Source of the DNA: Verrucomicrobiia bacterium
Lineage (GTDB): Bacteria > Verrucomicrobiota > Verrucomicrobiia > Verrucomicrobiales > Akkermansiaceae
Reading direction: 5' to 3'
Length of the DNA stretch: 41,159 nt
Assembly (NCBI GenBank): GCA_030432565.1
Contig: JAUIGV010000042.1
Span: 1-41,159, forward strand
Notes under the pieces: generated by a model
What the model was told of the DNA's origin: nothing
Database searches by the model: none
The model's input: only the letters and a program-made list of their open reading frames with translations
Program-made: the position numbers and the translations under genes
In this document: piece by piece, positions 2,139-38,269 of the stretch
Layout: each line of letters opens with the position of its first letter
Numbering within the stretch: the first letter of the stretch is position 1

Positions 2139-4497
2139 TGCTTTTCACACCATGGCTCAGGTCGATGAGATCATTTGGGCCCGCCCGCTTTCCACTGCGG
2201 CTCTCATAGCAATCTTTGCCGGGATCGTCGTTTTAAGCATCTTTCTCTATCGCAAAGGTTGGGGACTGCCCTTGTGGTTGCGAGTTTTTCTAGCCGTTTC
2301 GCGCATCCTTGTGCTGGCCCTGATCGTCGCCACTTTACTCGAACCAACTGCGGTAAGAACAGAGTCGCAAACGCGCGTCCGGAGCCTCCCTGTTCTTCTC
2401 GACATCTCGGAAAGCATGTCGATGAAGGACCAACGAAAACGTCCCGGAGACATCGTGGAGGCAGCCGCGGCTCTGGGGATGGTGTCTCTGGAGGACGAAG
2501 GAGAAGCCGAGCGTCTGGTGACGGGTTTGGATACAAAACAGCGACAAGCCATCGCATCCTCCTCCCGCCTTGATCTTGGTCAAGCCGCGCTCACCAATTC
2601 AGGCAAAGCAATTTTTGATTCGCTCGGCGAGTCAATGGATCTCAGCTACCACCTCTTTGGCCAATCTCCCCGCCTTGTCAGTGATCAGGACCTGAAAGAC
2701 TTGAAGGCCACCGAACCCGGAACCTCGATCGCCAGTTCACTCGAAGACGTTTCCAATTCCGGCGGACTCCCTCCGGCAGCAATCGTCCTGCTCACAGACG
2801 GCATCGACAACGCAAGTGCGCAGCGCTCGGAAGCGGTCCTGCAGGACCTGGGTGCACGCGGAATCCCGGTTTACGCTGTCCCGCTCGGTCTCGCAGATCC
2901 CGATGACGTCGCCATTCGGAATATCGTAATGCAGGAGGTTGCCTTTTCCGGCGACAGTGTTCCGGTCCGGGTGCATCTCGAATCACGCGGCTACGAACGC
3001 CGGACCGCCAGACTCGCAGTCAGCCTCAATGGCCGACGGGTGACCCAGAAAACAATTCGATTCACCGGCGGACTCCAATTCGAAGACATCGATTTCCGCG
3101 TTGATGTTTACGAGAAGGGTGCCGCACAAATCGCGATCACGGTGGAACCGTTTGACGACGAAGTCTCCATCGCCAACAACAGCGTCGAACGGAGCATCCG
3201 GGTTGTGAATGAGAAAATCAACGTTCTCTATATCGAAGGAAACGCGCGTTGGGAATTTCGCTATCTGCACGCCATCCTAAAGCGCGATCCACGAATCAAC
3301 GCCACTTTCATTGCCTCAAACATGGGTCCCGAGCTGGCCCGAAATTCACCAGAACACATCGAACGCTTCCCCGTCAAACGAGACGAAGCCTTTAAGTACG
3401 ACCTCGTCATCCTCGGTGACGTCGACGCGGATTTTTTCACACCCGAGGAACTCGGCCTGCTCGAGGAATTGATCCGGGATCGCGGTGGATCGCTCCTCGT
3501 TCTTTGTGGTCCAATGCACACTCCGGCCTCCTACGTCGATACTCCGGTGGAAACAATGCTACCCGTTCGCTTTGCGGCAGATGAAAAGTGGGAGGAAGTT
3601 TCGGATTCAGTCTTCCCCGTCCTCACACCCGAAGGCCGTAACAGCATGGTGATGACTTTGGAGAATGATAAGGCGGAAAACGATCGAACCTGGAGCCGGG
3701 TCGCGCCCCTCGATCACCTCCCGCCTCTTCTCGGCCCGAAGCAGGGAGCCACTGTTTTGGCGGCCTTGTCCGATGAGAATTCCAGCTCGCAACGCTACCC
3801 TCTCGTCGCCTGGCAACGTTATGGAACCGGCAAGTGCCTTTCGATTGCCACCGACCGGCTTTGGCGGTTGCGCTTCAAGACGGGCGACAAATACCACTGG
3901 CGGGTTTGGTCGCAATGCATCCAGTTCATGACCCTTTCCCGCCTCATGGGAGAACACAAACGGATCAGGCTGGAGACCGATCGCTCTATTTATCCCCTCG
4001 ATGACCAAAGCCGAATCTACGCGCACGTTCTGGACGATGAATTCGAGCCGGTTGTCCAGTCAGGCTTCGAAGTGGTGGTGGCCGGCCCCGGCGACAATGA
4101 AGTCGAACAACGCATCAAACTTCAGCCCGACCGCTCGCACCCCGGACTCTACGAAGGATACTTTACCCCTCCGGCTGCCGGCCGCTATCGCATCGAGGCG
4201 AATGACGAAGACAAGGATGTTTCGAATACCACCGAATTTCAAGTCGCTGACTTTCGCAAGGAACTCACCGATACCAACATGCGATCGGATCACCTGGAGC
4301 GGATCGCCGAATTGACCGGAGGAGCCAAGCTCAGCGTGCGCGATCTGCCGCAACTGCAATCGCTCATCAATACCGACCCCGTGACAACCACCGTCCGCTC
4401 GGAGCGCCCTTTGTGGGACAACAGTCTCATTGTATTTTTACTGGTGGGGCTTCTGGGAGCCGAATGGATCATTCGAAGAAGACACGATTTGCCATGA
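2131..4497 (+). CDS. VWA membrane protein with glutamine-amidotransferase-like domain
   Basis: This 788-residue protein has two N-terminal membrane segments (about 22-40 and 50-70). A von Willebrand A domain follows, with a metal-site motif DISES at 91-95 and a later VVLLTDGIDN strand. A middle region starts near NVLYIEGNARWEFRYL and continues through LVILGDVDADFF and LLVLCGPMH. It resembles the class I glutamine-amidotransferase-like fold often annotated in such proteins; I cannot show that it is catalytic. A final membrane segment precedes a short basic end. ATG 2131 overlaps the upstream stop by 8 bases; ATG 2152 is a possible alternative start. The stop overlaps the next start as ATGA. 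Paired VWA membrane proteins next to each other are typical of Bat (aerotolerance-like) operons in the PVC group, whose role is not firmly established. Confidence 0.87.
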   Translation: MPDAFHTMAQVDEIIWARPLSTAALIAIFAGIVVLSIFLYRKGWGLPLWLRVFLAVSRILVLALIVATLLEPTAVRTESQTRVRSLPVLLDISESMSMKDQRKRPGDIVEAAAALGMVSLEDEGEAERLVTGLDTKQRQAIASSSRLDLGQAALTNSGKAIFDSLGESMDLSYHLFGQSPRLVSDQDLKDLKATEPGTSIASSLEDVSNSGGLPPAAIVLLTDGIDNASAQRSEAVLQDLGARGIPVYAVPLGLADPDDVAIRNIVMQEVAFSGDSVPVRVHLESRGYERRTARLAVSLNGRRVTQKTIRFTGGLQFEDIDFRVDVYEKGAAQIAITVEPFDDEVSIANNSVERSIRVVNEKINVLYIEGNARWEFRYLHAILKRDPRINATFIASNMGPELARNSPEHIERFPVKRDEAFKYDLVILGDVDADFFTPEELGLLEELIRDRGGSLLVLCGPMHTPASYVDTPVETMLPVRFAADEKWEEVSDSVFPVLTPEGRNSMVMTLENDKAENDRTWSRVAPLDHLPPLLGPKQGATVLAALSDENSSSQRYPLVAWQRYGTGKCLSIATDRLWRLRFKTGDKYHWRVWSQCIQFMTLSRLMGEHKRIRLETDRSIYPLDDQSRIYAHVLDDEFEPVVQSGFEVVVAGPGDNEVEQRIKLQPDRSHPGLYEGYFTPPAAGRYRIEANDEDKDVSNTTEFQVADFRKELTDTNMRSDHLERIAELTGGAKLSVRDLPQLQSLINTDPVTTTVRSERPLWDNSLIVFLLVGLLGAEWIIRRRHDLP

Positions 4498-23244: not shown

Positions 23245-24804
<1,560 letters not shown>

Positions 24805-30962: not shown

Positions 30963-33815
30963 ATGGTAAATCCTGCGAAATTCCTCCTCGCAATCTCCTT
31001 TCTCTGTTCCGGCTTCTCCAGGTTGGCTGCTGCCGGAGAGTTCGCACCCGAACACCTCGATTTCTTCGAAAAAAAGATCCGGCCTGTCCTCAACGAGCAT
31101 TGCTACAAGTGCCACTCGGTCTCTTCAAAAAAGCTCAAGGCCTCCCTCTACCTCGACTCCCGCACCGGTATTCTCAAAGGCGGTGACACCGGCCCTGCAC
31201 TCGTCCCCGGTGATCCCGAGAAATCGCTCCTCATTGAAGTGATCCGCTACAAGGACACCGACATGGAGATGCCCCCCAAATCAAAGCTCCCCGATGCCGT
31301 AATCGCCGATTTCGAAACCTGGGTCAAAAACGGTGCCGCCTGGCCGGAGGAAGAAGGACCATCCGACGGAGGCAATGCCCTTGCCTTCGACCTGGAAAAG
31401 CGTAAATCGGAACACTGGTGCTGGAAACCTCTCGCACCAGCTCCCCGCACGCCCGATTTCATCGATCAACTCATTGGCGAGAAGCTCAAGGAAGCCAAGC
31501 TTCGCCCCGCGCCTCATGCCGACCCTGTCACTCTTCTGCGGCGTCTGGCCTTCGACCTCACCGGCCTTCCCCCAACCGTCGAAGAAATCGAAGCTTTCAA
31601 AAAAGCTGCTGCCGACAACCTCGACTCCGCCATCGAAGCAACCGTCGACCGACTCCTGGCCTCACCTCACTTCGGCGAACGCTGGGGCCGCCATTGGCTC
31701 GACCTCATGAGGTATGCCGAAAGCCACGGTCACGAATTCGACTACCCCATTCACAACGCCCACCATTATCGTGACTACGTCATTCGCGCTCTCAATGCCG
31801 ACGTTCCCTATGACACCTTCGTCGCCGAGCACATCGCCGGAGACCTTCTCCCCGAGCCAAGACTCAACCCCGAAGATCAAACCAATGAATCCATTATCGC
31901 AACCGGCTTCTGGTATCTGGGTGAGGCCGTCCACTCCCCCACCGATGTTCGCAAGGACGAGGCCGATCGCATCGATAATATGGTCGATACCTTCTCCAAA
32001 TCCTTTCTTGGCCTTTCCGTCGCCTGCGCCCGCTGCCACGATCATAAGTTCGACGCAATCTCCACCGCAGACTATTACGCTCTCACCGGTTACCTTCAAA
32101 GCACCCGCCGCAACGAGCATAAACAAGATCCCGGGAAAAAGATCGCCAGCGGCATCGCCGAGCTCGAAAAAATCGCCGCAAGCGGCAATCAGAGAATCAA
32201 AGGCAAAGGGCCGACCGGGACCCCATCTTCTCCCCCCGCCACGCCAGAAGGCCTTCTTCTTCCCACCAATTCACGCTGGTTCACTTCCGGCCATGCCTTT
32301 GGTGATTCACCGGTCCCCGCGCTGAATTGGATACCGGTCAAGAACACCATCACCGAACACGCGGTCTTCGATAGCGGACGCTATGGCGACAAACTCCACG
32401 GTGTTCTTCGCACTCCCACCTTCGAAATCACTGGCGACCGTGTCCACCTGTATGTCAAAGGCACCGCTGAGGTTCGCCTGACCATCGACGGACACTTCAT
32501 GCAAGTCTTCAACGGCCTCCTTTTCGGAGGCACCCGCAAGAACATCAAGACCGGCGACAAATGGCAGTGGGTCACTCTTAACAGCAAGGACATTGCTCAA
32601 AAATCCGGCCACCAGGCTTATCTCGAAATCATCGACTCCGGACCCGGCGCAATCGCAGTAAAAGCCGTCACCACGAGCCACGAGATCCCAAATATCGAAG
32701 AAATCCTCCCTCCCAACCTCCGCGCCAGAGAACTCGAAGCGCCGATCGCTGCTGAATTGAGCGGGCTTTCCGACTCTGCCAAAAAAATTTCCAATGCCAT
32801 CCCGTCCCCCTCAGCCACCATCCTCTCGGTGACCGATGGCACCCCTGAGAACGATCACATCCACATCCGGGGTTCCCACAAAAATCTTGGCAGGGAAGTC
32901 CCCCGCCGATTCCTGACCGCTCTCGGCGGCGAAGAAATCACACCTCCGGAGAACTCCTCCGGGCGTCTCGAGCTCGCCGAACAAGTGATCTCCCGGGAAA
33001 ATCCTCTCACCGCCCGCGTCGCCGCCAACCGGATTTGGCACCACCTCTTTGGCCGGGGCATCGTCCCCACTGTCGCGGACTTCGGCCCCATGGGGATTCC
33101 GCCTTCCCACCCCAAACTCCTCGATTCTCTTGCCGCTTCCTTGATCGAAGGCCGTTGGTCCCGGAAAAAGCTCATCCGCCAGATCGTTCTCTCGAAAACC
33201 TACCGTCAATCGGCCACTCCCCACCCCGATCTCAGCCCCAATTACCTCGCCGACACCGACCCGGAAAACATCTTTCTTCACAAGGCCCCCGTTCGCCGCC
33301 TGCAGGCCGAAGCCATTCGCGACTCCATGCTGGCCATCTCCGGCCGACTCGATCCCAAGCTTTATGGTACACCGGTTCCCGTTCACCTCACCAGCTTCAT
33401 GCAAGGTCGGGGCCGCCCCAAATCCGGCCCCCTTGATGGTGCCGGGCGACGCTCGATCTACACCAGCATCCGCCGGAATTTCCTTCCCCCCATGATGCTT
33501 GCCTTTGACATGCCCAGCCCTTTTTCCTCGGTCGCCAGGCGCACTGTCTCAAACGTTCCCGCCCAGGCCCTCACTCTGATGAATGACCCCTTCGTCGTCA
33601 GCGAATCCAAACGCTGGGCCGACTCCACCGCGAATATCAAGGATGACAAAGCCCGGATTGAAACGATGTTCCTGCAGGCCTTCGCCCATCCTCCAACACC
33701 GGAACAATTGAAAACAACCCTCGCCTGGATCCAATCCCATCCTTCCCAACAAAACGCCTGGCAGGACTTCGCCCATTCCCTCTGGAACACCAAGGAATTC
33801 ATCTTTCTCAACTGA
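30963..33815 (+). CDS. Planctomycete-type cytochrome c / DUF1549 / DUF1553 protein
   Basis: This 950-residue exported protein starts with a signal peptide (cut near LAAAG). The planctomycete cytochrome c domain follows, with a haem motif C47-Y-K-C-H51 and the later methionine-bearing segment DMEMPPKSKL. The DUF1549 domain follows (LLRRLAFDLTGLPPTVEEIEAF to ATGFWYLGEAVHS), containing a second CxxCH at 355-359 (CARCHDHKFD). A beta-rich insert comes next, then DUF1553 (RENPLTARVAANRIWHHLFGRGIV, SFMQGRGRPKSG, DMPSPFSSVARRTVSNVPAQAL). This three-part arrangement is very common in Planctomycetes and Verrucomicrobia and is always paired with a DUF1501 gene, as here 33 bases downstream. Its function is unproven; a periplasmic redox role in polysaccharide breakdown is often proposed. 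Confidence 0.95.
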   Translation: MVNPAKFLLAISFLCSGFSRLAAAGEFAPEHLDFFEKKIRPVLNEHCYKCHSVSSKKLKASLYLDSRTGILKGGDTGPALVPGDPEKSLLIEVIRYKDTDMEMPPKSKLPDAVIADFETWVKNGAAWPEEEGPSDGGNALAFDLEKRKSEHWCWKPLAPAPRTPDFIDQLIGEKLKEAKLRPAPHADPVTLLRRLAFDLTGLPPTVEEIEAFKKAAADNLDSAIEATVDRLLASPHFGERWGRHWLDLMRYAESHGHEFDYPIHNAHHYRDYVIRALNADVPYDTFVAEHIAGDLLPEPRLNPEDQTNESIIATGFWYLGEAVHSPTDVRKDEADRIDNMVDTFSKSFLGLSVACARCHDHKFDAISTADYYALTGYLQSTRRNEHKQDPGKKIASGIAELEKIAASGNQRIKGKGPTGTPSSPPATPEGLLLPTNSRWFTSGHAFGDSPVPALNWIPVKNTITEHAVFDSGRYGDKLHGVLRTPTFEITGDRVHLYVKGTAEVRLTIDGHFMQVFNGLLFGGTRKNIKTGDKWQWVTLNSKDIAQKSGHQAYLEIIDSGPGAIAVKAVTTSHEIPNIEEILPPNLRARELEAPIAAELSGLSDSAKKISNAIPSPSATILSVTDGTPENDHIHIRGSHKNLGREVPRRFLTALGGEEITPPENSSGRLELAEQVISRENPLTARVAANRIWHHLFGRGIVPTVADFGPMGIPPSHPKLLDSLAASLIEGRWSRKKLIRQIVLSKTYRQSATPHPDLSPNYLADTDPENIFLHKAPVRRLQAEAIRDSMLAISGRLDPKLYGTPVPVHLTSFMQGRGRPKSGPLDGAGRRSIYTSIRRNFLPPMMLAFDMPSPFSSVARRTVSNVPAQALTLMNDPFVVSESKRWADSTANIKDDKARIETMFLQAFAHPPTPEQLKTTLAWIQSHPSQQNAWQDFAHSLWNTKEFIFLN

Positions 33816-33848: not shown

Positions 33849-35291
33849 ATGCACTGCCGAAACTTTCGCCCTTCCTCACTCACCCGCCGTGACATGCTCC
33901 AACAGTCCGCTTGCGGATTTGGAGCTGTCGCTCTCTCCGCCCTCCTCGCTGAAAATGCCTCGGCGGCAAAAGCAGACTACAACCCCACCAATCCCCTCGC
34001 GCCCAAAAAGCCCCACTACACGCCCAAGGCCAAAAACGTCATCTTCCTATACATGGATGGCGGACCTTCGCAAGTCGACACCTTCGACTACAAACCACTC
34101 CTCAAAAAGTTCAACGGACAAGACCCCCGAAAGGCCATCGGCAAGCTCGAACCCACCCAGTTCGACAACATCGGAAAGGTCATGCAATCGCCCTGGACCT
34201 TTAAGCAGCATGGTGAATCAGGAGCCTGGGTCAGCGACCTCTTCCCGCACATTGCCAAGGTCGCCGACGACCTCACCTTCATCAAATCGATGACTTCCAA
34301 GTTCCCCGAACACACTGCGGCAAACTACTTCCTCCACACCGGCTCCGGCCTGCAGGGACGCCCCAGCATGGGCGCCTGGGTCGGGTATGGACTCGGTACC
34401 GAAAACCAAAACCTCCCGGGATTTGTCGTTCTCAACGGAGGCCTCATCCCTCCGGGAGGCCTCGACAACTTCAATTCCGGATATCTTCCCGCCGCCTATC
34501 AAGGCTCGGTCTTCAATCCCGGAAACACTCCCGTCGCCAACATTAAACCGGCCGGCTCGAACCCCGAACTTCAGCGCCGGAAACTGGACCTCATGCGACA
34601 GCTTGATCTCTCCTCCAAAGACCGCTTTGCCGGTGAGGAGCAAATCGAATCCGCCATCCTGAATTACGAAACCGCCTTTCGCATGCAGGCCGCGGTTCCA
34701 GACCTCATGGATCTCTCTGGTGAGTCGGATACCGTGAAAAAAATGTACGGCCTCGAATCAGACTTCAATCAGACCAAAATCTTTGGCCGCCAATGCCTCC
34801 TCGCCCGCCGCCTCGTCGAGCGTGGAGTCCGCTTCATTGAACTCACCTGCCCCGGTGGAAATGGTGACCGCTGGGACCAGCACAATAACCTCGTCGACGG
34901 TCACGGAAAGAATTGTAAAACCGTCGATCAACCCATCGCCGCTCTCATTATGGACCTCAAAAAGCTGGGTCTTCTTGATGAGACCCTTGTGATTTGGACC
35001 GGCGAATTTGGGAGAACTCCCTTCGCACAAGGCGGAAACGGCCGTGACCACAATCCTTTCGGCTTCACCACCTGGATGGCCGGGGGCGGCGTCAAACCGG
35101 GCATCTCCTATGGCCGGACCGACGACTGGGGCTATAAGGCAATTGAAAACAAGGTCGAGATCCACGACCTCCACGCCACCATGCTCCACCTCCTTGGCAT
35201 CGACCACACCAAGAGCACCTTCCGCTTCTCATCAAGAGACATGCGCCTCACCGATGTCCACGGCCACATTCTGAAGGACATTCTAGCCTGA
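33849..35291 (+). CDS. DUF1501 protein with Tat signal
   Basis: The 480-residue protein begins with a twin-arginine signal (SSLTRRDMLQQSACGFGAVAL, with the RR pair at 13-14), so it is exported folded. DUF1501 members have an alkaline-phosphatase/sulfatase-like fold. Family landmarks seen are VIFLYMDGGPSQVDTFDYKP, the Lys/Met segment FIKSMTSKFPEH, LPGFVVLNGG, TLVIWTGEFGRTP and GRDHNPFGFTTWMAGGGV. The motif lacks the C-x-P-S-R of sulfatases, so the enzyme reaction is unknown. It lies 33 bases after the cytochrome/DUF1549/DUF1553 gene, the standard pairing in this phylum, and probably works with it in the periplasm. Its gene ends in a 284-base convergent region. Confidence 0.95.
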   Translation: MHCRNFRPSSLTRRDMLQQSACGFGAVALSALLAENASAAKADYNPTNPLAPKKPHYTPKAKNVIFLYMDGGPSQVDTFDYKPLLKKFNGQDPRKAIGKLEPTQFDNIGKVMQSPWTFKQHGESGAWVSDLFPHIAKVADDLTFIKSMTSKFPEHTAANYFLHTGSGLQGRPSMGAWVGYGLGTENQNLPGFVVLNGGLIPPGGLDNFNSGYLPAAYQGSVFNPGNTPVANIKPAGSNPELQRRKLDLMRQLDLSSKDRFAGEEQIESAILNYETAFRMQAAVPDLMDLSGESDTVKKMYGLESDFNQTKIFGRQCLLARRLVERGVRFIELTCPGGNGDRWDQHNNLVDGHGKNCKTVDQPIAALIMDLKKLGLLDETLVIWTGEFGRTPFAQGGNGRDHNPFGFTTWMAGGGVKPGISYGRTDDWGYKAIENKVEIHDLHATMLHLLGIDHTKSTFRFSSRDMRLTDVHGHILKDILA

Positions 35292-35575: not shown

Positions 35576-36653
35576 TTACTTTCTACGGCGCCGAAGCAGG
35601 GGAAGAAGACCGAGCGCGACCAGAGCCATGCTGGAAGGTTCGGGAACGGCTACGCCGTAGATTTCCACCTCCCGCAGGGAGAGGACGTCCGTGCCGGATG
35701 CCCCGTTGTTGAGGCCTCCGATCAATTCGACGCGCACGCGGTCACCGCTTGCAATGAACTACCGGTGTCTTCCTGAATGCTGAAAATGGAAGAAGCGTTG
35801 CCACCTCCAGTGAAGTAATCCTCTACCCAAACTTCGGTAGTCCCATCGAAAATCGAGACGCGGAAATTACTCAGTCTGTCACCACAGCAGTCGCCACGGT
35901 TATAGAGGGCAATTTCATTGATGCTGGAAAGTGAGGCCAGGGATGTCTCCCAGAAAACCGGACCACCGGCGCCCGGGGCGGTATGCGTGGTTGATCCGGC
36001 ACCAAAGGCGTTGGCAAGGCCACCATCAATCGCCTTGCTGGCATCAGGAGTTGCCGGGTTGGCAAGCGTCGAGGACTGACTGGGCATGCTGCCGAGAGCG
36101 AGGTTGGTAAAACTAACCAAGGGTGCCCCGAGAACATCCACCTCTGCGAGTGAAATGGCGTTGTTGCCCCCATCGAGGCTATCGGCATTGCGCTGCACGC
36201 GAACATACTGGGCCATCACACCGATGCTTGAGAAACTGATGCTCGCACCGGCAGCCGAGGTCTGGTTTCCGGAGTCATACACAGTGGTGGTAAAGCCGGA
36301 ATCATTACCAGCAAGAACCGAATAGTTCGAGAGCCGATTGCCGCAGCAGTCGGAGCGGTTGTAGAGCTTGATCTCATTGATCGGGCGGAGGGCGCCAAGA
36401 TCGACCTGCCACCAGCCATTCGCCTCGGCGTTGCTGGTGTGACTGACAGAACCGCCCGGGTATGAAGCGTTATAGTTTCCATCGATGGCGCGCGAAGCAA
36501 CGCCCCCCGCCTGCTCGGTCGACTGACTTGCCGCAACTCCGTCCAAGAGCGCCCAATTGACACCTATGTTTTGGACGAAACTGTTCGTCACGACGTCTCC
36601 GGAGGCCGCGCTAACGGCAAGGAAAAAAAGGAAGCAAAATTGGAAATTTTCAT
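35576..36653 (-). pseudogene. PEP-CTERM discoidin-like surface protein, two frame breaks
   Basis: The body (uninterrupted frame 35722 to 36666, whose only start is TTG) encodes two discoidin-like galactose-binding domains with matching motifs: NEIKLYNRSDCCGNRLSNY and NEIALYNRGDCCGDRLSNF. Adding one base near 35759 carries the frame on through FIASGDRVRVELIGG and LSLREVEIYG to a PEP-CTERM signal (VPEPSS, a hydrophobic helix, then RRRRK) with its stop at 35576-35578. At the other end, a better start (ATG 36651-36653 with AGG six bases before it, MKISNFAS) is out of frame by one base at an A7 tract (36623-36629); an eighth base would restore a proper signal peptide. The intact form would be about 358 residues and sorted to the surface by an exosortase. 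Whether the breaks are real mutations, phase variation or sequencing errors cannot be decided here. Confidence 0.72.
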
Positions 36654-36666
36654 AATTTACCTGCAA

Positions 36667-37054: not shown

Positions 37055-38149
37055 TCATTTTGCGACCTCGATGAGGTCACCGGGTTGGAGCATGACCTGG
37101 CGCATTTCCATGATGAGCTCCATCGCATTAATTTGGGCAGTTTTCCCGTCGCGAGTGAGAAACACTTTTTTCTTATTCGCATCTCTGTTGAATCCTCCCG
37201 CCCTCGCAATCGCAGCCACAAGATCGAGCCGCCCATCCAAGGGAAAGGGCTGGAATCCCTCATTCATGACCGCACCACTGAGGGTAACTCCAAGACCAAC
37301 AAAACGACTTTCATGAACCCGCACGCGATCTCCGGGTTTAAGCAGGGTTTTGCCAGAGTCCCCTTTCAGAATTGCCTCACGCAAAATTGCCTCATATTGA
37401 AAATAGGAGGGTTTACTTCCATCTGCGGGAATGAGTTCGATTCTCGATAGATCGGCGTAAGAGCTTGGGCCTCCCGCAAGAAGAAGCGCGGTTGCCAAAT
37501 CGAGCTTACCGCTCTTTGGAATCGTCACCAGACCGTGTTTCCCGACCCTTCCCTCAATGCTCACAGATGTCTTTGCAAGCGGGCCCTTTGAGACAATGAT
37601 TTGATCTCCTGCGCTTAGCAGCCGCTTTTCTTTTGCTCCTCTGATTTTTTCCCAAGTCCAAGTCTCGCTCACTCCATCTGCAGTCACCAACTCGATCGCA
37701 TCGGGGTCCGCAAAGGGGGAAATCCCTCCCGCAACGGCCAAGGCTGTTTCCAAATCCATCCTCACACCCAATGGCAACTCCACCGGGCCGGGACGGTGGA
37801 TCTCCCCGCTGACATGAACAAATTCCCGGGCATATCTGAGCATGGCCAGAGCCATTGGGGGGAACTTGGCTCGGCCTTCGGCGAGGGACTCTCGAATTTT
37901 TTGCTCTGCTTCTTTCAGCGTCAAACCACGCAATGGAATTGCCCCTTGGATCGTTGGTATGGAAACCTTTCCATCCTGATCAATGCTTAGGGATTTTGTG
38001 AGATCCGGTCGCTGGAAGACGGTCAACCTAAAATGGTCCCCGTCCCTCAAGCGATAAGGCTCCGACTTGGCGCCTTGAGGTTCCGCCGACAGCTGGGACG
38101 TGAAACCCAAAAGAAGAAGGAGGAAAAATTGATACGAGATCTTTTTCAT
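37055..38149 (-). CDS. Wza-like polysaccharide export protein with SLBB domains
   Basis: ATG 38149 gives a signal peptide (MKKISYQFFLLLLLGFTSQ); the frame stays open to 38254 without signal-like sequence. The 364-residue protein starts with the polysaccharide-export domain (YRLRDGDHFRLTVFQRPDL, then SIPTIQGAIPLRGLTLKEAE). Three SLBB-type domains follow: VHVSGEIHRPGPVELP, VSIEGRVGKHGLVTIP and VTLSGAVMNEGFQPFP. Each leads to an LDLATALLLAGG-like helix, and the protein ends with LQPGDLIEVAK. Family members form the outer-membrane or periplasmic channel through which capsule or exopolysaccharide leaves the cell. No polymerase, flippase or tyrosine kinase gene is in the window. Exopolysaccharide export genes often accompany PEP-CTERM/exosortase systems, and a PEP-CTERM gene lies 400 bases away. 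It follows the gamma-glutamyltransferase gene by 120 bases on the same strand. Confidence 0.9.
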   Translation of the reverse strand: MKKISYQFFLLLLLGFTSQLSAEPQGAKSEPYRLRDGDHFRLTVFQRPDLTKSLSIDQDGKVSIPTIQGAIPLRGLTLKEAEQKIRESLAEGRAKFPPMALAMLRYAREFVHVSGEIHRPGPVELPLGVRMDLETALAVAGGISPFADPDAIELVTADGVSETWTWEKIRGAKEKRLLSAGDQIIVSKGPLAKTSVSIEGRVGKHGLVTIPKSGKLDLATALLLAGGPSSYADLSRIELIPADGSKPSYFQYEAILREAILKGDSGKTLLKPGDRVRVHESRFVGLGVTLSGAVMNEGFQPFPLDGRLDLVAAIARAGGFNRDANKKKVFLTRDGKTAQINAMELIMEMRQVMLQPGDLIEVAK

Positions 38150-38269
38150 GGATGAAGGAACCATTAAAAATTTGGGATGAAGTGTCGATGCTGCAAAATC
38201 GTTTTCATGCAAGGCACCAAGCCAGCAAAACTCCGGTCGATTGCCGGTGCTCAAGTCAATTCGCGACTA

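Follow-up and report, generated by a model that had tools for sequence, protein, structure and literature searches.

The window, the whole stretch of 41,159 nucleotides analyzed here, comes from an Akkermansiaceae genome (G000) and carries on its reverse strand a gene for a protein with two discoidin domains, the coding sequence of which is divided between reading frames (Table 1). The body ORF, called mechanically from the TTG at 36666, encodes 314 aa and terminates with a TGA at 35724-35722. It is in the wrong frame after about residue 304, relatives aligning to residues 303-304 only. Further downstream, a second frame reads FIASGDRVRVELIGG...LSLREVEIYGVAVPEPSSMALVALGLLPLLRRRRK and ends at 35576; in the three-frame translation, FIASGDRVRVELIGG...LSLREVEIYGVAVPEPSS...RRRRK continues the body without loss of homology.

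The displaced tail was identified as a PEP-CTERM signal both by Pfam PF07589 (28.4 bits, cut-off 20.7) and by NCBIfam TIGR02595 (21.9 bits, cut-off 16). Tails at or above the cut-off were absent from all 14 control genomes, 13 of which gave sub-threshold matches at E<=10. The PEP motif, the hydrophobic stretch and the basic C-terminal cluster are thus all present, but in the displaced frame: the tail does not form the C-terminus of the frame that encodes the domains, since the body ends at 35722 in another one.

Table 1. Features of the discoidin locus and its neighbours (window positions).
Feature	Position	Strand	Basis or remark
DUF1501 gene, intact neighbour used as yardstick	33849..35291	+	98% identical in G003
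Displaced C-terminus: end of second discoidin domain and PEP-CTERM tail	35576..35737	-	ORF, Pfam, NCBIfam
PEP-CTERM motif: VPEPSS, hydrophobic stretch, RRRRK	35582..35650	-	28.5 bits, above cut-off (genome search)
Body ORF: two F5/8 type C (discoidin) domains	35722..36666	-	PF22633 (110.4 bits) and PF00754 (85.5 bits), each over two stretches
3' frame change, one base	35755..35768	-	Window/G011/G003 DNA alignment, gap at 35759/35760
Run of seven T in the signal-peptide region, likeliest site of the 5' frame change	36623..36629	-	Sequence, three frames, gap versus G011
Likely true start codon ATG (MKISNFASFFSLPLA...)	36651..36653	-	Frame differs from that of the body; G011 ATG one alignment column away
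Polysaccharide-export type protein with SLBB domains, intact	37055..38254	-	PF02563 62 bits, PF22461 81 bits

A previous reading of the DNA made from the sequence only had described the stop at 35722 and a textbook PEP-CTERM tail in another frame, and both its coordinates and its description were borne out by the ORFs, Pfam and NCBIfam. The one-base change near 35759 that it proposed as joining the frames coincides with the gap in the alignment of the window with the related genomes G011 and G003, although that alignment leaves the placement uncertain by a few bases. There is no long homopolymer at the site. According to the alignment, the break deletes the last strands of the second discoidin domain.

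Homologues and history of the locus

The homologue in G011 (Akkermansiaceae isolate DAH.28, JALQTQ010000088.1) encodes 359 aa without a break in frame, signal peptide and PEP-CTERM tail included, and shares 75% identity with residues 18-304 of the window ORF. Its tail scored above the cut-off in the genome search (22.1 bits) and below it in the protein scan (18.3 bits). In the sister genome, G003, a remnant of the gene likewise keeps a single frame across the 3' break point and leads into a tail that scores 28.4 bits. Because both copies are in a single frame across this point, the junction of body and tail reflects homology and not chance; that relatives might all end at the stop at 35722, as the sequence-only reading had considered, is excluded by the in-frame tails of G011 and G003. 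Compared with the intact G011 gene, the window copy carries two disabling frame changes, as a pseudogene would. A more distant homologue, in Verrucomicrobiales CSSed162cmA_213 (G039), has 371 aa, 47% identity and a PEP-like tail, for which there was no Pfam report at E<=0.01.

Some match was detected in 43 of the 58 genomes searched, mostly to single discoidin domains in larger proteins. Matches at E<=1e-30 occurred in four of the 27 genomes of the genus (G000, G003, G011 and G024), those of G024 having other architectures. No strongly similar intact copy was found in G000, where the five other matches score at most 51.7 bits.

The two-domain protein of G011 has the same domain order and the same tail as the window gene, but is encoded in a single intact frame with signal peptide and tail, and in tandem copies (G011:C549; L012:1321-2400 and 2481-3770). 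The first copy bears the PEP-CTERM tail. The second (429 aa) keeps the whole domain and ends in a different C-terminal extension of about 85 residues, with no PEP tail, so that the tandem neighbours represent a change of C-terminus between adjacent copies.

The flanks of the gene are 98% identical between the window and G003 (dS 0.084 for DUF1501 and 0.049 for DUF1549), while the discoidin gene itself is only 84% identical. The G003 copy, which also lies beside DUF1501, contains several breaks and lacks the 5' part; beyond window position 36221 identity is about 27-55%, i.e., the 5' part is non-homologous. With a non-homologous 5' part and a gene that is itself broken, the G003 copy was dropped as an intact reference. 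The contrast between 84% and 98% may reflect either decay in G003 or a replaced allele. Elsewhere in the window, a sulfatase-like gene (23245-24804, 519 aa) is intact and its G003 counterpart is frame-broken. The 3' end of the DUF1549 gene (window 30963-33815) matches two differing contig ends of G003, C80:1-2839 and C34:1-400 (98.3% and 97.0%), and G003 may therefore mix strains or hold a duplication.

Substitutions were counted over codons >=130 or >=150, and whole-gene values for window versus G003 were omitted owing to the badly aligned 5' part. Over codons >=130, at codons where only one lineage differs from G011, the window branch carried 2.5 nonsynonymous and 10.5 synonymous changes, and the G003 branch 20 and 14, respectively. 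By position, the nonsynonymous/synonymous counts for the window were 9/8 (codons 130-199), 3/9 (200-299) and 1/1 (300-358), compared with 18/14, 17/4 and 9/3 for G003. On the window branch, codons 130-199 show no clear constraint, and codons 200-299 are constrained. Between the window and G011, dN/dS was 0.12 both over 353 codons (dS 1.43, near saturation) and in the 59 codons that encode the displaced tail (dS 0.97, near saturation). We read these patterns as those of a gene that was probably under selection until recently and is now broken, its counterpart in G003 having apparently been broken earlier.

The 5' end and the fate of the gene

The other end of the gene proved to be altered as well. 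The ATG at 36653-36651, with AAA as the next codon, is the only one in a fitting place; the frame that it opens reads MKISNFASFFSLPLA at first and runs for 21 codons before it closes. This ATG is presumably the true start. Its frame differs from that of the body, and the run of seven T lies between the two, a second frame break that the sequence-only reading had overlooked. The only start upstream in the body frame is the TTG at 36666, which would give MQVNYENFQFCFLFFLAVSAASG, without Lys or Arg. Neither version provides an N-terminal signal peptide in frame with the domains: the ATG frame closes, and the TTG version has no basic residue. Direct comparison of this region was limited by the relatives, as G003 is non-homologous at this place and the signal peptide of G011 differs in sequence.

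A set of loci from the same genome served for comparison. For 43 of the 57 PEP-CTERM tails above cut-off in G000 the loci were fetched, and 40 of these have an ORF with an in-frame ATG that reaches the tail; K or R occurs within the first ten residues in 38 of the 40. The three loci without such an ORF were the gene studied here, C36:64338, which has an in-frame stop, and C34:120261. Since the likely start codon and the body are in different frames, the gene has most likely lost its signal peptide in addition to its tail, a view that depends on the choice of start codon.

This bears on the fate of the product. The sequence-only reading had concluded that the protein would lose its anchor and sorting signal and be released instead of attached. 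The loss of the tail stands; release is not expected of a product whose signal peptide is probably lost and whose second domain is incomplete. A shortened but functional protein initiated at the TTG at 36666, i.e., a secreted or cytoplasmic discoidin protein without anchor, would be in keeping with the open 314-aa frame and with the existence of tail-less relatives, such as the second tandem copy of G011. However, this start offers no basic residue before the hydrophobic stretch, against the 38 of 40 loci described above, and about ten out-of-frame residues end the protein inside the second domain, which the second G011 copy keeps whole. We regard such a protein as highly improbable.

If the assembly or the sequencing were in error, the cell would have an intact gene for an ordinary surface protein of the PEP-CTERM type. 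Body and tail are still constrained, and the low dN/dS of the body would fit a misread intact gene equally well. The displaced tail carries just one synonymous and one nonsynonymous change on the window branch, and the 5' change falls among seven consecutive T, the kind of site at which sequencing errors, too, are commonest. Against this, the 3' break lies outside any long homopolymer, the G003 copy is independently degenerate, and the background of frame changes is low. The last point comes from a survey of about 0.80 Mb of G000 and 0.70 Mb of G003, mostly around PEP-CTERM loci, in which 197 kb were aligned at a mean identity of 94.0%. When 155 ORFs of G003 (184.8 kb) were tested against G000 DNA, four frame-change candidates emerged: the gene studied here, the sulfatase gene, of which it is really the G003 copy that is broken, and a pair in locus L146, ambiguous because they also turned up in the reverse comparison. 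That comparison, of 149 G000 ORFs (189.7 kb), produced nine candidates, the breaks being mainly on the G003 side. Large neighbouring genes are open, up to 1508 aa, and 54 of the 57 tails above cut-off in G000 lie in open frames of at least 199 aa; of the other three, one is the displaced tail, one belongs to a further broken gene (C36) and one to a true mini-protein. With so few frame changes in G000, two within one gene of 1.07 kb would be unusual for the assembly, although the gene was chosen because it is broken and the rarity of frame breaks does not equal a probability. The assembly error already contemplated in the sequence-only reading is accordingly disfavoured by the low frame-break background, yet it remains as an unlikely alternative, and we infer that the frame changes are present in the living cell.

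Switching of the frame, by reversible changes or programmed slippage at the run of seven T and the 3' site, would lead to variable surface display. Slippage could act on the T run in the signal-peptide region. The second break lies outside a repeat, however, and a separate event would be required for it; visual inspection of the 3' site revealed no slippery heptamer, and G011 has no T run at the corresponding place. This reading is barely credible.

The gene is thus probably a pseudogene, inactivated recently, whose ancestral product would have been a surface protein sorted by an exosortase. That protein would have begun with a signal peptide, followed by two discoidin domains and a PEP-CTERM tail, and the frame of the gene would have been lost twice, within the signal peptide and again just before the tail. 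After both losses the protein would be expected to be neither secreted nor sorted, and its second domain would be incomplete. The product is presumably absent, and most likely there is no functional one. As in ordinary bacterial pseudogenes, independent frame breaks are found at the same locus in two sister genomes, and no feature was found that sets the window gene apart from these.

PEP-CTERM proteins and EpsH-family genes of the genome

The 57 tails of G000 that exceed the Pfam cut-off may be compared with the 65 of Verrucomicrobium spinosum given by Haft et al. (2006, PMC1569441). With the PEP-CTERM/exosortase (EpsH) sorting system as outlined there, the window and its genome share a tail made up of PEP motif, hydrophobic segment and cluster of basic residues, as well as the many tails per genome, the exosortase and the adjoining polysaccharide-export gene. 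The window gene differs from the system so outlined in that its tail and signal peptide are out of frame with its body.

Several other members of the PEP-CTERM set are unusual in structure. A mini PEP-CTERM protein of 61 aa (G000:C74:22690-22761, L001), located near the main exosortase on the same contig, has little beyond a signal-peptide-like start and a tail, and has an ortholog at G003:C34:75821-75892. Another discoidin-like PEP-CTERM gene (G000:C36:64338-64406, L002) contains an in-frame stop in mid-gene. At G000:C79:111150-111218 (L005), the N-terminal part and the tail, which is below the Pfam cut-off, are in different frames, an apparent second frame break in the PEP-CTERM gene set of G000. 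Finally, a short tail fragment at G000:C27:9307-9375 (L004) has no full gene in front of it, and a tRNA-like gene, recognized by eye, lies just upstream.

The sequence-only reading had proposed a look-up for an exosortase gene, and an intact one is present. In total, G000 encodes three EpsH-family genes. The exosortase on C74 is intact (329 aa; PF09721 143.5 bits; TIGR02602 134.4 bits, cut-off 105.55) and adjoins an EpsI-like gene, which scored below the cut-off for TIGR02914 (23.9 bits versus 42.8). The gene on C62 adjoins a 656-aa PEP-CTERM frame. The third (C34:74401-75474; L159:1501-2574) is interrupted by a single in-frame TGA, in the column that the catalytic Cys occupies.

EpsH homologues with a single TGA were also detected in G009:C181 (L169), G010:C6 (L160) and G021:C54 (L171) by a search of relatives (38 genomes, 24 of the genus), to which an order-wide search (386 genomes) added G026:C99 (L197). 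Both searches combined, such paralogs occur in 5 of 27 genomes of the genus; outside the genus, none was found at E<=1e-45 among the 386 genomes of the order. Simple decay of the third EpsH gene had been entertained and was dropped when the same single TGA appeared in G009, G010 and G021, and then in G026. In all five genes the stop is a TGA at the same place, with the frame open on both sides. Four full copies could be aligned, that of G026 being treated separately since its contig ends about 13 codons after the TGA. The G000 copy is 33-42% identical to three of the others, and the frame on either side of the TGA has thus stayed open through a long divergence. Each of the five genomes also has a homologue without a stop. 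Two neighbours of the TGA gene are common to G000 and G010, and another, which we take to be hisF, to G010 and G026; the shared neighbours suggest an old locus.

SelB and tRNA-Sec, two components of the selenocysteine machinery, were searched for in the genus and in control genomes. SelB scored above its cut-off in all five genomes with a TGA gene, in 24 of 27 genomes of the genus and in 2 of 14 control genomes; for tRNA-Sec the corresponding numbers were 3 of 5, 20 of 27 and 5 of 14. ARAGORN called a tRNA-SeC (tca) in G000, G010 and G009, and a sub-threshold match in G021 is a tRNA-Ser. In the region 3' of the TGA, a SECIS-like hairpin whose loop bears GG can be drawn for each of the five copies, at a common place. 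In this hairpin 91.3% of cells are paired and two pairs have both sides changed, which was reached by 41 of 500 shuffles (4 distinct rows). The folding energies are unremarkable (z of -0.08, -1.15 and 0.41 in three copies); the four TGA copies gave -10.1, -9.3, -7.9 and -3.1 kcal/mol, versus -2.8 to -8.0 kcal/mol for ten Cys genes. The pair counts lean in favour of the hairpin, and the folding energies do not.

The exosortase triad of Cys, Arg and His is described by Haft et al. (2006, PMC1569441) with the motifs CxG, NxxR and HxxxG. Of the four full TGA copies, three retain the Arg and one the His, short of the triad that marks an active exosortase; all four match the Pfam family (55-82 bits) and score below the cut-off of TIGR02602. 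With the catalytic His lost in three of four, the paralog is not called an active exosortase here. Members of the genus probably have, in addition to their normal exosortase, another protein of the EpsH family, with a UGA codon that would be read as selenocysteine in the position of the catalytic cysteine. In the literature searched, with most subscription papers outside the search, exosortases were linked with selenocysteine or selenoproteins by incidental co-mentions only.

The discoidin gene illustrates that a single frame change need not amount to a change of function, as the other end of the gene altered the conclusion. It appears as one more lost member of a large and fast-changing PEP-CTERM set. 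The TGA-bearing EpsH genes, a side finding, are more interesting than the gene that was studied. Gene callers would split each of them in two, and they would go unseen. Their product would be a membrane selenoprotein of the exosortase family that, with the His missing in three of the four copies, may no longer be a transpeptidase.
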